Positions 4,924-64,000 of a stretch of DNA of 64,000 bases are shown one piece after another. Within the stretch, counting starts at the first letter, position 1. Each line of letters opens with the position of its first letter. A model generated the notes under the pieces. The model searched no databases and was not told where the DNA came from. It saw only the letters and a program-made list of their open reading frames with translations. Location: assembly GCA_013822735.1 (NCBI GenBank), contig PNKZ01000005.1:186001-250000 (forward strand), read 5' to 3'. The translations under genes and the position numbers were made by a program. The DNA comes from Pirellula sp. (GTDB taxonomy: Bacteria > Planctomycetota > Planctomycetia > Pirellulales > PNKZ01).

Positions 4924-7900
4924 ATGGCTTCGCGTATTCCACGCTCCGCTTCCGACGATCCGATCTCGGCCGCCACGTTTGACATGGCCGCTAAGCCGCC
5001 GCACGGCAAACTCGTGAGACGTTTGTTGGTCGCCCTATTTGCGCTCGTCGTCATCGCGGCGGCGGCGCCGCAGATCATTAGTCGCACACCGCTCTTGGGG
5101 CAGCTCGTCGGCTGGGCCGCGAGCGACGTCCAGGGAACGGTGAAAATCGGCGAGGCATCGCTCAATTGGTTCACCGCGCCGCATGCCGAGCAAATCGAAA
5201 TCACAGGCGCCGACGGCGCTCTCGTGGCGCGCGCCGATTGCGTGCACACCGAACGCACGCTGTGGAATCTCGCCACGCGACCGATGCAACTCGGCCGGCT
5301 CCGCATCGAGCGGCCCTTCTTAAACGTCGTCGTCCGTGCCGACGGCACGACCAACCTGGAAGAAGTCCTCGCGAAGTTTTTGAACGCGGCGCAATCGCCG
5401 GCGGGCACGCCCGGCGTCGATTTTGCCGTGGAAGTCGTCGAGGGCGCCATCGAGGTGCGCGACGAGCGGAGCCACCGGAAATGGCAACTCGTCCAACTCG
5501 GCGGAGTCGTCATCATGCCGGCGACGAACGCGTTGCCGCTGTCGATCGATTTGCAAGGCGCCATCGCCTTCGCCGACGGACCCCGGCCGTTTAGCATCAA
5601 GTGCGACTATCGCGACGGCGCGCCTCCCGGCGCCCCGACCGCGCCGCAAGGCAGCGCCGCGCTCGATCTCGGAGCGTTGCCGCTAGACTTGGTCGGTGCG
5701 TTGGCACGCCGCCTCATGCCGGATGTGCAAATCGCGGGAATCGCCTCGGGCAAGCTGCAAACCACGTTTGATTGGACCGCCACGCTGCCGACCATGGCGG
5801 TCGAAGGGCGACTGAGCCTAGCCCGGCCTGTGATCGGCGGGTCGCTGCTCGCGGGCGACGAGTTGAGCATGGCCGAGATCGATTTGCCGATTCAAGCCTC
5901 CCTTACCGGCAAACGATTGCAGATCGGAAATCTCGGGGTGAAATGCGACCTCGTCACGGCCCAAGCCCAAATCGTCGTCGATGACTACACGAAGCTTCTC
6001 AATGCGGCTGGCGCGCGAGGTTTTCTCGATCTGGTGACGCAATGCGACGGCAAAGCATCGGCACAGATCAGTCTGGCGAAGATTGCGCAAGCGATGCCGC
6101 ACGTTATGCGTTTACGCGACGACGTGCAAATCACCGGCGGCGAACTCTCGCTGAATCTCGAAAGCCGGCGCGATGGGGCCGGCGCGCGACAATGGCAGGC
6201 AAATCTCACGGGCGGCAGCCTCACGGCGATCGCCCGCGGACAAGCGGTCACCTGGGACGAACCGCTCAACGCCTCGCTCACGGCTCGTGATACGCCGACC
6301 GGTCCCGTCGTCGAACGGCTCGACTGCCGGTCGGTGTTTCTCGTCGTCGAGGGAGTCAATTCGCCGAGCAACTTCCAAATCCGTGCGCAATACTCGTTGG
6401 ACCGACTCACGGAACGATTGGATCAATTCATCGATCTGGTCGGCTTGCAATGTCGGGGTGAGGGAACGGCGGAGATTGCTTGGACGCGCGAAGCAGGAGA
6501 TCGCTTCCGTGTGGAAGGAACCGCTTCGATCAACGACTTCCAACTGCTCGCGCCGGGCTACCCCAACTGGACCGAACGGCAACTTGTCGTCGGCGTGCGC
6601 GCACTCGGCCGGGCCTCGGGCCTGAACATCGCGGCGCTCGAAGAAGCGACGCTCGGACTCGAATCGGCCGGCGATCAGCTGACGGCCCGACTCACCGCGC
6701 CGGTGACCGACTTTGCGAACGCGCACGCCGTGTTGCCGCTGGCCGTCGAAGGGCGCGGGCAGCTCACGACTTGGCTCGCGCGGCTCCGGCCGTTTGTGGG
6801 CATTCCGCCGCTCGTGTCGGCGGAAGGACAAGTCGAGCTCTCGGCCGTCGGCGAGATTCACCTGCCGGAAGAGATCACGATCGCCCAATCGAAGCTCACC
6901 GCACAACCGTTCCGCGTAGCGATGCCCGGCTTCGCGCTGGATGAGCCTTCGGCCGAGTTGACGCTCGTCGGACGCTACCATCCGCTGCGGACCGACGTCG
7001 CCGAAGCGACCTTCAATAGCGTCGGCACGCAAGCCGCGCTGCGCAACTTTGCGTACGTGGCCGGCACCGGACAAGCGCCGGAGCTGCACGGCGAGCTCGG
7101 TTTACGGGGCGACTTGGCGAAGCTGTTTGTCCCGAGCACGCCTTTGGCGGGAGCCGCAGGCGCGCAACCGGTTCGCTTCGGCGGACTGATCGAGGCGACC
7201 AGCAAGCTGGAACGGACCGGCGCCGTAACGGCCGTGGCGCTGGATGCCGTGGTCAAGAACCTCACTGTGCAACAAGGGACCGCGCAACTTTGGAACGAGC
7301 CGCAAGTACGGCTGGTCGGCAGCGGCGTGTACGAGCCGCGTCGCGATGCGCTGGCGATCGACCGGTTGGAGATCGTCGCCGATGCTTTGCGGCTGATGCT
7401 CACCGGCAAGCTCGATCAGATCAGCACGGCTCGCGTGCTCGATTGCCGCGGCGAGGCGACGTACGACTTGGCGAAGCTCACGCCGCTGGCGCAAACGTAT
7501 CTCGGCAACGGCGTCTCCTTCACGGGACGCGAGACACAGCAATTTCAACTTGCCGGGCCGATGATCGACCTGAAGCGGCCCGACGCCGTCGCTTGGCATC
7601 AACTACAAGGGGCGGCCAAGCTCGGCTGGGAACAGCTCAACCTCTACGGCTTCCCCGTGCCGCGCAACACGTTAGACGCCACGCTCAATCAAGGCTACGC
7701 CCGCACCTCGGCGCTGGAAGTGCCCGTCGGCGGCGGACGTGTGCGCATCGCGCCGACGGTGCGCGTCGGGCCCGAGCCGATGGAAGTGCGGCTCGATCCG
7801 GGCGTGCTGGCCGACCATGTGACGATCACTCCGGAGATGGCGAACCAGCGTTTGCAATACGTGATGCCGATCCTGGCCGGCACCACGCAAGTCGGCGGCT

Positions 7901-59542: not shown

Positions 59543-59549
59543 AATGTTC

Positions 59550-61544
59550 ATGTCTCGTGTTTCCGATCGTAATGTTTCGCCGCGCAACGGCCATACCCTC
59601 ATGGCCGGGCTCGGCGCCCGGATCAGTGGCTGCGCTAGTCAGAAAGAAGAGAGCCTCGAAGATCAGACGGACCACAATAAAGAAGTCGTCACGGAGATGT
59701 ATTCGGCCGGTCCGATCGAATACCTGATCATTGCCACGAAAGGGAAAGGGGAACGCCTGGACCGGCCGGAATTGACGGACATCGAGGCGGAATTCCGAAA
59801 ACGGTACCTCGACGTCTTCGTGTGGGAAGATCTGGGCCGGCTGGTGCGCGGCGTCGAAGCTGTGCGGCTGCTGGGCATCGCCGTCGATCACGGCACGCGC
59901 GTGATCGTGCCGAACGACAACATCGACACGGCGAACGAAACGTGGGAAGCCGATGCCATCAAGGCCTGCGCGGACCACGTAGCCCATCAGGAGCACACTT
60001 CCCGAAGGCTCAAACACAAGCTGGCGAACCGCTTCGTGAAGCACGGCGGGGCGATGTCGCGGCCGATTGCCGGATACGTCGTTCCCCAAGGAGTGAAGTC
60101 GTTCAACGACTGGCTCAAAGACCCGCGGTTCGACGTCCGCTCGAACCCGCAAGCGGACCCGTGGATCTACGACGGTGCCAAGCTCCTCCGCGAAACGCAG
60201 AACTGCACGGCGGTCGCCGACATGCTGAACGCTCGCGGCGTCGCCGTCGGTCCGTACTGCCGGCGGAAAACCTGGGACGGGGCGATGGTGCGCCGATTCT
60301 ACGGCAACCCGTTGCTCAAAGGTCAAGCGGTACGTAAACGGCGGCATTCCGTCAAGTTTCACGAATCGGGAGTGCGGAAGTCGGTGCTCAATCCGAAAGG
60401 TCCCCTGAACTACGCCTGCCCGCACTTGGCCTACTTCGACGCGGACGAGCACGACGACTTGCAGCAACTGCTCAAGGACCGGAACTACCGATACAAGCGA
60501 GCTTCCGTCCACGGCGTGGACCCGCTCACGCGCGTACCGCGGAAGCGAACTCGCTTTCCGGGGCAACACGGTCGCTGCTGGTACTGCGGCTACCATCACG
60601 TGTGGGGCGGCAATGGCGTGACGGAGAATCTGATGTGCAGCAATGCGCGGCACTGGCAGTGCTGGAACTCGGTCGGTTACGACGGGGCCTTGTTCACCGG
60701 TCGCTTGGTCGACGTCATTAAAGCGGAACTCTACGGTCTCGACGGTTTCGATAGTCAATACCGCGAGTTGATCGAGCAGTCCGGCAGTAGCGACCGGGGC
60801 GAGGTCGCCCGGCGATGGGAACGGCTCCAACAGGACGAACTCGAACTCGCCAAACGTCGCGAGCGGTTCGTCGAAGCGATCGATAAGTTCGGCGTACAAC
60901 CGATGTTCGAGGCTAAGCTGCAGGAGATCGACGCGGACGAGCGGAAGGTCCGGCTCCAACGGCGGGCGCTGGAACGCCTCGGGCAAGAGCGGCTCCAGGT
61001 TCCGGAGTCGACCATTGTGCTGCGTCAGATGCTCGAAGAAGAATTCGTCGGTGCCGCCCACGATTCGCCGGAGTTCGGCGATTTGCTGCGCAAGTTGTGC
61101 CCTGACGTCTTCGTCTACTTAGTGCGGTTGTGCGACGGCGGCGGCTTGCTGCCGCGGGCGTACGTCCGACTGACGCTCGACGGAATCGTCCCCGATGCGC
61201 GGCTCGTGCCGGGGCTGGACGGTTTGTTGCGGCGTGAAGCGACGTTCGACCTGTTCGATGCTCCGCAGCGGGAACGCATCCGCACGGATGCCGTGCGGTG
61301 GCAGGCGTCCGAACTGGCGCCGAAGGCGATCGCCGCTAGGATCGCCGCAACCACCATCGAGCGTCCGACGGCGACCGCCGTGCAAAACGCGTTGAACCTG
61401 CAGGAGCGGATGACCGACTTGGGGCTCTCGTCGCCGTGGGTCACGGTGCTGGAGCCGCCGACCGACCTGCCGAAACTCCGGCGGCACCGGAACGCCAAGT
61501 ACCGCTTCACGCCGCTCGACGGCTATGCACGACCGCCGGTTTAG
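59550..61544 (+). CDS. Large serine recombinase
   Basis: 664 aa. The resolvase-type N-terminal domain (about 18-160) has 'LGARISGCASQKEESLEDQ', where R24 and catalytic S26 match the RxS and S...Q..SL..Q pattern; 'VWEDLGRLVRGVEAVR' is the usual DxxRLxR helix. The middle 'recombinase' domain is followed by a zinc ribbon CWYCG ... LMC ... WQC (about 345-372) and a coiled-coil region ('LQQDELELAKRRERFVEAIDK'). This is the layout of integrases of the phiC31/TnpX type. The start at 59550 has GGAGG at 8 bases; an ATG at 59544 is too close. Likely moves the linked cassette. Confidence 0.9.
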   Translation: MSRVSDRNVSPRNGHTLMAGLGARISGCASQKEESLEDQTDHNKEVVTEMYSAGPIEYLIIATKGKGERLDRPELTDIEAEFRKRYLDVFVWEDLGRLVRGVEAVRLLGIAVDHGTRVIVPNDNIDTANETWEADAIKACADHVAHQEHTSRRLKHKLANRFVKHGGAMSRPIAGYVVPQGVKSFNDWLKDPRFDVRSNPQADPWIYDGAKLLRETQNCTAVADMLNARGVAVGPYCRRKTWDGAMVRRFYGNPLLKGQAVRKRRHSVKFHESGVRKSVLNPKGPLNYACPHLAYFDADEHDDLQQLLKDRNYRYKRASVHGVDPLTRVPRKRTRFPGQHGRCWYCGYHHVWGGNGVTENLMCSNARHWQCWNSVGYDGALFTGRLVDVIKAELYGLDGFDSQYRELIEQSGSSDRGEVARRWERLQQDELELAKRRERFVEAIDKFGVQPMFEAKLQEIDADERKVRLQRRALERLGQERLQVPESTIVLRQMLEEEFVGAAHDSPEFGDLLRKLCPDVFVYLVRLCDGGGLLPRAYVRLTLDGIVPDARLVPGLDGLLRREATFDLFDAPQRERIRTDAVRWQASELAPKAIAARIAATTIERPTATAVQNALNLQERMTDLGLSSPWVTVLEPPTDLPKLRRHRNAKYRFTPLDGYARPPV

Positions 61545-61999: not shown

Positions 62000-62731
62000 A
62001 TGACTGCAACTCTGTGCGCATTCCGCGCGTGCAAATCGGATACGAACGCTGCGAACTCCCAGATCTCCGCGACGCTCCAACGCTGGCGGCGGCAGGTCGC
62101 CGGTCGGACGGACCTGGCGGAACGTCGGGGCGTGCGGCCTTTCGCTTTAGTGGGCCACCGCATCTCCGGCAACGTTCGCGGTTCGCTGGTTCCGCTCGAC
62201 AAGCTGTCGTTCGTAGCCCTGTTTGACGAACGGGACGAGGAGGACCGCCTAGCCACGCGGCTCGTCGGCTGCCGAGCCCGCTTAAATGCCGAGCACCTGC
62301 TAATCGGCGGCGCGGAATCGAGCCTGTTCGACAAGAACGTGCGTTTGGCCCCCGCCGGCGCATGCGGCGGGCGGCTCGACCCGCGCGACGGGCCGCTCTG
62401 TGAATTGGCTCTGAGCTGGGAGCAACATCTCGAGCGTGTGAATCGCCATCCGCACTTTCCCCGTCGCAATCTCCTGCGCTGGCCGCAGTGGTGGTGCCGC
62501 GTGAACACGCCGGCGGCGGACGTGCCGACGCACGACGTCGACGGGCAGCGCCTCGTACGTTTGGAAACCGCGGTGGCCGGCCGGCTGCCGATCGTGGCGG
62601 TGTACGCCGACGTCGCCGGAGTACCTAAACGACAAGTCCTTGCCGGCACCGAACCCCGTCGGTTGCTCTGCGGCGTGCAGGGGGACGTCGTTTTCGATCT
62701 CTATCACAGTCGCTTTCGCCGTGCGGACTGA
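62000..62731 (+). CDS. Unknown protein, first gene of the ubiquitin-like cassette
   Basis: 243 aa, cytoplasmic; ATG has a very strong GAGGAGG ribosome site at 5 bases. No ThiF, JAB, E2 or AAA motif is seen. Readable features are a basic helical N-terminus (ATLQRWRRQVAGRTDLAERRG), a central alpha/beta stretch ('LSFVALFDERDEEDRLATRL') and a His/Trp/Arg-rich middle ('NRHPHFPRRNLLRWPQWWCR'). The three genes run in one direction with 50- and 73-base gaps, which supports a joint function with the beta-grasp protein and the E2-like protein. Function not known. Confidence 0.75.
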   Translation: MTATLCAFRACKSDTNAANSQISATLQRWRRQVAGRTDLAERRGVRPFALVGHRISGNVRGSLVPLDKLSFVALFDERDEEDRLATRLVGCRARLNAEHLLIGGAESSLFDKNVRLAPAGACGGRLDPRDGPLCELALSWEQHLERVNRHPHFPRRNLLRWPQWWCRVNTPAADVPTHDVDGQRLVRLETAVAGRLPIVAVYADVAGVPKRQVLAGTEPRRLLCGVQGDVVFDLYHSRFRRAD

Positions 62732-62781: not shown

Positions 62782-63009
62782 ATGAAGGTTTTGTTCATCA
62801 ACGCCACCGGCGGCGGCTTTGCCGCGCCGTTGGAGATCGCCGAGGGAACCACCGTCGGCATGCTGTTCCTGGAGCAGGTCGGCGGCGATCCCAAAAACTA
62901 CCTGATCCGCGTCGATCGCTTGCCGACGACGATCCATCAGGTGCTGCACGAAGGGGCGAGAATCTCGATCACGCCGCTGAAAATCGAAGGCGCGCGCGGC
63001 GTGGCGTAG
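62782..63009 (+). CDS. MoaD/ubiquitin-like beta-grasp protein
   Basis: 75 aa, ATG preceded by TTGGAGAGTAA. The order beta-beta-alpha-beta-beta is readable: 'KVLFINATGGGF', 'PLEIAEGTTVGMLF', 'NYLIRVDRLP', 'HQVLHEGARISITPLKIEGA'. This is the MoaD/ThiS form of the ubiquitin fold (VLxEGxRISITPxKIEGA is common in small MoaD-like proteins of such clusters). The C-terminus is ARGVA, so no terminal Gly-Gly is present in the primary product. It is followed 73 bases later by an E2-like gene, which argues for protein conjugation over molybdopterin synthesis. Confidence 0.8.
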   Translation: MKVLFINATGGGFAAPLEIAEGTTVGMLFLEQVGGDPKNYLIRVDRLPTTIHQVLHEGARISITPLKIEGARGVA

Positions 63010-63082: not shown

Positions 63083-64000
63083 ATGCCTTGGAAACCTTTG
63101 CTCTGGCGGACCGCCGTCCGCCTCGAGGCGGCCTACGCCCGGCGCCGAGCGCCCTTGTTCGGCGATCCGCTCCACTGGGACGCTTGGAGCGAACTGGTCG
63201 CGGGAATTCGTCGCCGCGACAAAGCCGCACGTCGCGGCTGGCGGTATGCGCGGATGCGGGAACACGAGACGCTGCAGCGTGAGCTGGAGCACCTGTTGAG
63301 CAATTTGCGGGTTCTGCGCGGAAGCTTCCTGCTGCCGCAAGTCCCTCGCCTCCCCGGAGCCGCCGAACTGTACGCCGAACTCGCAGCGGCGGAAGCGGAG
63401 TTCGGTGCGGTCGTCGAGGAGGACTACGAACTGTTCGTCACGACCGAGCCGATTTCGCTGGAAGGCATTGATCTCGGTCCGTTTGAGATTCGGTTGGATC
63501 TCCGTCGTCTGGAAGAGCCGGAGCCGTATCGTATCGTGGCCGTCGATCCCCGGCCGGCGCACAGTTCCTCGGAAACCGTCCATCCGCACGTCCATGCGCA
63601 GCGGATCTGCCTGGGAGAAGGGAAGCCCGCCGTGGCGGCGGCTCTGGCCGAAGGACGCCTCGGCGACTTGTTTCAGCTCGTCCATCGCGTCCTGCAGACC
63701 TACGGCGAGGGCTCGGCTTACGTACCGCTCGATCGCTGGTGCGGCTCGCCGTGCGCCGATTGCGACGACGCGATCGACGAGGAGGAAGGTTACTCGTGCT
63801 ACGACTGCGACGGAGTCGTCTGCGGCGGCTGCGTGCGGAGTTGTCGCTACTGCGATCGCTCGGCCTGCCATGAGTGCGCGACCGTCTGCTACTCCTGTGA
63901 AGAGACGGTATGCGGACGGTGTCTCGAGCGCTGCGAACAGTGTGGAGAAGATTTCTGTTCCGAATGTTTAACGGAAGGAGTATGTGATGCCTGTCGAGAG
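63083..64000 (+). CDS. E2-like protein fused to a Cys-rich treble-clef/RING-like tail (3' end beyond window)
   Basis: 306 residues visible; no stop before base 64000. Residues 1-85 are a basic helical lead-in. Residues ~110-220 resemble a ubiquitin-conjugating (E2) core: 'GPFEIRLDLRRLEEPEPYRI', then HPHV (167-170) and RICLGEG with candidate catalytic C176, nine residues after H167. In canonical E2s HPN precedes the ICLD cysteine by about ten. Residues 220-304 have 21 cysteines, mainly in 15-residue units C-x2-C-x4-C-x2-C-x3 (starts at 239, 254, 269, 284). These should bind several zinc ions, as RING or treble-clef modules do. Inferred role: conjugating enzyme with built-in E3-type part for the beta-grasp protein upstream. 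Confidence 0.75.
   Translation, partial: MPWKPLLWRTAVRLEAAYARRRAPLFGDPLHWDAWSELVAGIRRRDKAARRGWRYARMREHETLQRELEHLLSNLRVLRGSFLLPQVPRLPGAAELYAELAAAEAEFGAVVEEDYELFVTTEPISLEGIDLGPFEIRLDLRRLEEPEPYRIVAVDPRPAHSSSETVHPHVHAQRICLGEGKPAVAAALAEGRLGDLFQLVHRVLQTYGEGSAYVPLDRWCGSPCADCDDAIDEEEGYSCYDCDGVVCGGCVRSCRYCDRSACHECATVCYSCEETVCGRCLERCEQCGEDFCSECLTEGVCDACRE

Follow-up and report, generated by a model that had tools for sequence, protein, structure and literature searches.

A divergent, probably active E2-like protein with a zinc tail in a planctomycete operon of a probable ubiquitin-like conjugation system

The window analyzed here is a stretch of 64,000 nucleotides (G000:C5:186001-250000) from a Pirellula sp. 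genome of 6.9 Mb in 38 contigs. At its far end begins an operon that encodes a small ubiquitin-like protein (Ubl), an E2-like protein with a cysteine-rich tail (E2-Zn), a JAB/JAMM peptidase (JAB) and a ThiF-type E1 (Table 1). The window end cuts E2-Zn at residue 305; the protein has 355 aa overall and its stop is found at C5:250150, which corresponds to window coordinate 64150. Two further copies of the operon are present in the same genome, one on contig C26 (60% protein identity) and one at C5:53.6 kb (39%).

Table 1. Genes and features of the operon. Positions are window coordinates except where a locus is named.
Feature	Position	Strand	Basis
Protein X, 243 aa, first operon gene in this genus	62000..62731	+	no Pfam/NCBIfam/PADLOC match
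Ubl, 75 aa, ThiS/MoaD-like, ends KIEGARGVA	62782..63009	+	family ThiS matches
E2-Zn protein	63083..64000, on to 64150 beyond the window	+	ORF from ATG at 63083
E2/UBC-like domain, residues 88-222	63344..63748	+	AF2, structure matches, HHalign
HPHVHAQRICLGEG, residues 167-180	63581..63622	+	translation, conservation
Predicted catalytic Cys176	codon 63608-63610	+	invariance
Ser211, predicted acceptor-site serine (CES/D position)	63713..63715	+	invariant; aligned via HPN-type E2s
Zinc tail, ten CxxC pairs, residues 224-304	63752..63994	+	sequence, alignment
JAB/JAMM peptidase	63987..64796 (beyond the window after 64000)	+	Prok-JAB 4e-4, below Pfam cut-off
ThiF-type E1	from about 64627 to 65307	+	ThiF 6e-19
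'sm', 66 aa, after E1 in operon	L004:5414-5611	+	operon order

Relatives of E2-Zn were pooled from genome searches and from a profile scan of the genome_contigs collection, giving an aligned set of 78 proteins. The 64 distinct sequences among them are the proper count, since several genome_contigs loci apparently derive from the same organisms as the loci from the genome searches. E2-Zn found a match in 8 of the 57 relatives searched and in 19 of 392 genomes of the phylum, a few of these matches being to the zinc tail only. The profile scan of genome_contigs gave 34 loci, and those with a name were all planctomycete. When the same collection was scanned with the single E2-Zn sequence no match was obtained, and the plasmid and viral collections gave no E2-Zn relatives. 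Several copies of the operon can occur in a single genome, as seen for G029 with seven and G291 with five.

The order Ubl, E2-Zn, JAB and E1 was observed in essentially every locus that was long enough. In loci of other types than that of the own genus, genes for an AAA ATPase, a 320-aa protein and the small protein sm often lie upstream of this core. Only in the own-genus type is protein X found directly upstream of the Ubl gene, where it replaces the pair of AAA ATPase and 320-aa protein. Protein X contains an HPHF sequence and was considered as a second E2, a candidate that was dropped because it has no family match and is confined to own-genus-type loci. The AAA ATPase is of the CDC48/FtsH type and is encoded, together with the conserved 320-aa protein, upstream of many of the operons (L006:3738-5276 and 5539-6501). 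The sm proteins, of 66-80 aa, share an invariant T-G, an invariant G-F and a nearly invariant D-W (L004:5414-5611; L006:6822-7061); they accompany most operons, lying downstream of the core in this genus and ahead of it in other loci, and are possibly substrates or regulators. Within the core, the JAB reading frame overlaps E2-Zn by about 164 nt in the window copy (L004:3988-4151), and in 55 of 64 loci the E2-Zn stop is positioned 7-106 nt past the first conserved JAB residues. This conserved overlap of the two coding sequences suggests translational coupling.

The Ubl belongs to a ThiS-like family, as Pfam ThiS was matched by 10 of 12 sampled members (best 2.6e-5), the window copy itself having no Pfam match. 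The Ubl profile also hit designed filaments in the PDB, which were set aside as chance matches. The protein always ends in K-[IV]-x-G-A with a variable stretch behind it that ranges from no residues to many. UFM1 is made as a precursor that is trimmed after a single glycine, and given the conserved end with its variable extension we read the Ubl in the same way, as a precursor that is probably trimmed to its single glycine by JAB. The residues HxH...S..D of JAB are invariant and the upstream Glu is present in at least 95% of the relatives; in the E1, GxGxxG, the Asp residues and a C-T pair are all invariant, while the predicted E1 cysteine aligned to no known catalytic cysteine. The resemblance of Ubl and E1 to ThiS and ThiF, and the fact that JAB proteins accompany sulfur-carrier proteins as well (CysO/Mec+), would also suit a sulfur-carrier or small-molecule pathway of the ThiS/MoaD/CysO type, in which the Ubl would carry sulfur and the E2-like protein would act as an acyl or sulfur relay and not as a protein ligase. 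We find such a pathway unlikely, as E2 domains are not known to form part of sulfur-carrier pathways, recurring biosynthetic enzymes were not seen nearby whereas the CDC48/FtsH-type AAA ATPase does recur, and cofactor synthesis would not normally call for several operon copies in one genome.

A preliminary description of this DNA had pointed out an HPH...ICLG-type motif at residues 167-180 of E2-Zn, and HPHVHAQRICLGEG is indeed encoded there in the frame that opens with the ATG at 63083, with the claimed spacing of nine residues from His167 to Cys176. The exchange of the Asn of the E2 tripeptide HPN for His, claimed in the same description, turned out to be a property of the whole family, as HPH is present in all 78 aligned relatives and HPN in none of them. 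Conservation of C176 among homologues was checked as well and this cysteine is identical in 78 of 78, as are H167, P168, H169, G178, Y207, S211 and W219 (64 distinct sequences). Residues 171-174, inside the motif, are freely variable in the same alignment. Since the eight named positions are invariant while these four vary, the motif is not a chance occurrence. HPH alone would have no force to exclude the protein from the E2/UBC family, being a documented variant in the Ube2W family.

Scanned directly against Pfam, NCBIfam and PADLOC, E2-Zn gave no match. The HPH-type proteins as a group also lie beyond the reach of Pfam E2 models; the lone UQ_con match among 56 is best explained by L050, an HPN-type outlier that makes up one row of the 56 in the domain alignment. 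A PDB sequence search with the E2 profile returned a single, meaningless match. We therefore turn to structure, where the E2 domain was modelled by itself because realignment of the full-length model was dominated by the N-terminal helices. AF2 prediction of residues 88-222 from 56 sequences reached a pLDDT of 92.8 and a pTM of 0.87, with helix, strands, active-site loop and two helices in this order. Among the best 50 Foldseek matches of the domain 49 were E2 chains, including a PHF7-UBE2D2 chimera, with a TM of about 0.5; the first rank was taken by the RWD domain 2ebk, a relative of the E2 fold, and the second by UbcA1 (3WE5). No Foldseek match had an E-value below 0.001, the range being 0.04-0.6. 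In a structural realignment the top match was Ube2K (Z 7.2, rmsd 3.5, 118 of 135 residues), and 49 of 50 rows were E2/UBC, the E2 matches spanning 118-120 of the 135 domain residues with Z about 6-7. Taken one by one, these Foldseek and Z scores for a predicted model are within the range of chance, and it is the uniformity of the list that is the evidence. A check of the fold had been proposed together with the motif, and in the predicted structure domain 88-222 comes out as E2/UBC-like.

This was further supported by HHalign comparison of the HPH-type proteins with HPN-type planctomycete E2s (L050 excluded; E 1.5e-6, score 42.1, where 150 column-shuffled versions scored no higher than 21.5). 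In the alignment HPHV..C stands opposite HPNI..C, with nine-residue spacing in both, and TYN..S[AP] opposite SYN.KSP. The HPN-type E2s in turn match Pfam UQ_con (2.4e-9) and eukaryotic E2s in the PDB, and the serine of their KSPLN falls on the acceptor-site Ser/Asp, in NIDSPLN of UBE2C and in NIQDPAQ of UBC9. With the HPN-type proteins as a bridge, C176 would be the catalytic Cys, H169 would correspond to the HPN Asn and S211, which is invariant in the HPH-type family and placed through the HPN-type E2s, would be the acceptor-site residue.

Taken together, the E2-like core suggested by the preliminary description is borne out by the predicted fold, the profile similarity to HPN-type E2s, the invariant C176 and the operon with Ubl, JAB and E1. 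E2-Zn is probably a divergent and active E2, encoded in a complete planctomycete operon for Ubl conjugation. It is likely that the gene provides the E2 for a ubiquitin-like conjugation system of planctomycetes, and these bacteria would then probably tag proteins with their own ubiquitin-like modifier. This reading is built on sequence, conservation, predicted fold and synteny, from which we infer every step of the chemistry, what the tail does and which proteins are targeted. Counted against it are the misses by Pfam E2 models, the modest Foldseek and Z scores, the unaligned E1 cysteine and the single glycine of the Ubl in place of GG. The misses by Pfam, the top Foldseek rank of the RWD domain 2ebk and the missing HPN Asn could also indicate a catalytically dead E2-like adaptor of the UEV/RWD type, which would merely present the Ubl or the E1. 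Such an adaptor is very unlikely given that none of the 64 distinct sequences departs from His167, His169, Cys176 and Ser211, that the motifs of E1 and JAB are intact, that HPH-bearing E2s of the Ube2W type are active and that the operons show no other E2 gene.

With E2-Zn as an active E2, conjugation would start with cleavage of the Ubl by JAB behind the glycine of K-[IV]-x-G-A. This glycine would be adenylated by the ThiF-type E1, which would move the Ubl onto its own invariant cysteine, and Cys176 of the E2 domain would then receive it as a thioester. His169 would replace the HPN Asn in holding the tetrahedral intermediate and Ser211 would position the incoming amine, so that the Ubl would land on a protein target, from which JAB would be able to remove it again. 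The zinc tail would most likely bind the substrate or the Ubl-loaded E2, and it may replace a separate E3, as the operon showed no further RING-like gene.

Members of the Ube2W family carry HPH and are active, with a suggested role of the second His in stabilising the oxyanion (PMC4630614, PMC11649903). The targets of Ube2W are N-terminal amines, and basic residues are reported to stand at its acceptor site in place of the Asp/Ser (PMC9527308). E2-Zn is like Ube2W and UbcA1, its second Foldseek match, in having HPH for HPN. It is unlike Ube2W in the spacing of nine residues (ten in Ube2W), in the invariant S211 where Ube2W has basic residues, and in the zinc tail, which Ube2W does not have. 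The acceptor serine kept in E2-Zn favours amine targets, and the combination of HPH with this invariant serine leads us to expect amine acceptors, lysine being at least as likely as N-termini.

The ten CxxC pairs of the tail are nearly invariant among the relatives and could hold about five zinc ions. A like cysteine tail is carried by HPN-type E2s (L096:7242-8177, L098:5334-6221). Comparison of the tail profile with the HPN-type tail scored 53.6, while 40 shuffles of the non-Cys columns, with the Cys kept in place, scored at most 37.9; the likeness to the HPN-type proteins thus exceeds cysteine spacing. Against PDB profiles the tail gave RING, ZZ and FYVE matches that were weak and cysteine-driven (best 0.007), together with a local FYVE match, and no Pfam RING model matched it. 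Of the idea that a zinc-binding tail would put E2 and E3-like parts in one chain, the tail was upheld as a sequence feature by its CxxC pairs, and an E3-like role of the tail found no support from RING models. There is about an even chance that the tail serves only in structure, substrate binding or sensing and that E3 activity is absent or encoded elsewhere, which would be compatible with E2-Zn being an E2. This agrees with the lack of a match by RING models, and the HPN-type operons hold a like tail beside separate Prok-RING_1 genes, meaning that an E3 role of the tail is not required. In contrast, the HPH-type operons, including those of the own genome, showed no separate RING gene, which leaves room for an E3-like tail, and the weak RING, ZZ and FYVE matches with the local FYVE match would allow a treble-clef fold.

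The HPN-type E2s of L096 and L098 are found in clusters with a YukD-Ubl, ThiF, JAB-TM, FHA, Prok-RING_1 and trypsin, which we take to be systems like those that Burroughs, Iyer and Aravind described in 2011. The E2-Zn operon is like these planctomycete systems in the tandem CxxC tail after the E2, the H-to-C spacing of nine, the profile similarity of both the E2 domain and the tail, and the presence of E1 and JAB in the cluster. It differs from them by HPH and by a ThiS-type Ubl, whereas the HPN-type systems have a YukD Ubl, separate RING, FHA and trypsin proteins and a detectable UQ_con.

Planctomycetota have long been debated over eukaryote-like traits. The ubiquitin-like pathways Bil, Bub and CBASS are recent discoveries, with most work done in a few lineages, and with Bil and Bub as the experimental cases. 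As in Bil and Bub, Ubl, E1, E2 and JAB are encoded within one operon here; the E1 profile matches BubCD (3e-9), and for the window E1 there is a match to the BilD model (1.4e-5). Unlike Bil and Bub, this operon has a single-domain ThiS-like Ubl, a free-standing short E1 and an E2 with an upstream HPH and a zinc tail. The E2 BilB carries a CEHH motif (PMC11354881), and an invariant His of this type after C176 was not found in our alignment (A1). Bacterial operons with Ubl, E1, E2 and JAB have been predicted since Iyer et al. 2006, whose operon types 6a-6e are likewise of this composition (PMC1779556). In their type 6d E2s the upstream His is missing and a downstream His is present, a zinc tail is not described in the available parts of that article, and Planctomycetes are not mentioned in it (PMC1779556). 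The operon architecture was not found described in the accessible parts of the PMC literature, and an earlier mention in subscription papers is possible.

Tentatively, and as less likely than not, the operon could be seen as a stand-alone bacterial ubiquitin-like system which unites E2 and E3 in one polypeptide, combines HPH with the canonical acceptor serine, transfers a single-glycine Ubl to proteins, occurs in several copies per planctomycete genome and is often linked to an AAA ATPase. The operon adds a zinc-tailed E2 with an HPH active site that is otherwise described for Ube2W. The compact set of four genes (Ubl, E2-Zn, JAB and E1) is amenable to reconstitution and could be used to ask if one chain can do the work of both E2 and E3 and how HPH affects acceptor chemistry, with the HPN-type relatives and their like tail as a natural comparison.

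A gene for a large serine recombinase (Resolvase + Recombinase) is found upstream of the operon, at 59544-61544 in the window and at L005:3413-5482. Among loci whose upstream sequence covers 5 kb or more, such a gene was present in all six of the protein X type and in 16 of the total of 46, and these recombinases are divergent (about 22-45% where comparable). Mobility of the operon by way of the upstream recombinase is only a lead. In the C26 copy, a GP88-family gene (PF17338, 1.5e-33) is located between the recombinase and protein X (L005:5813-6478).
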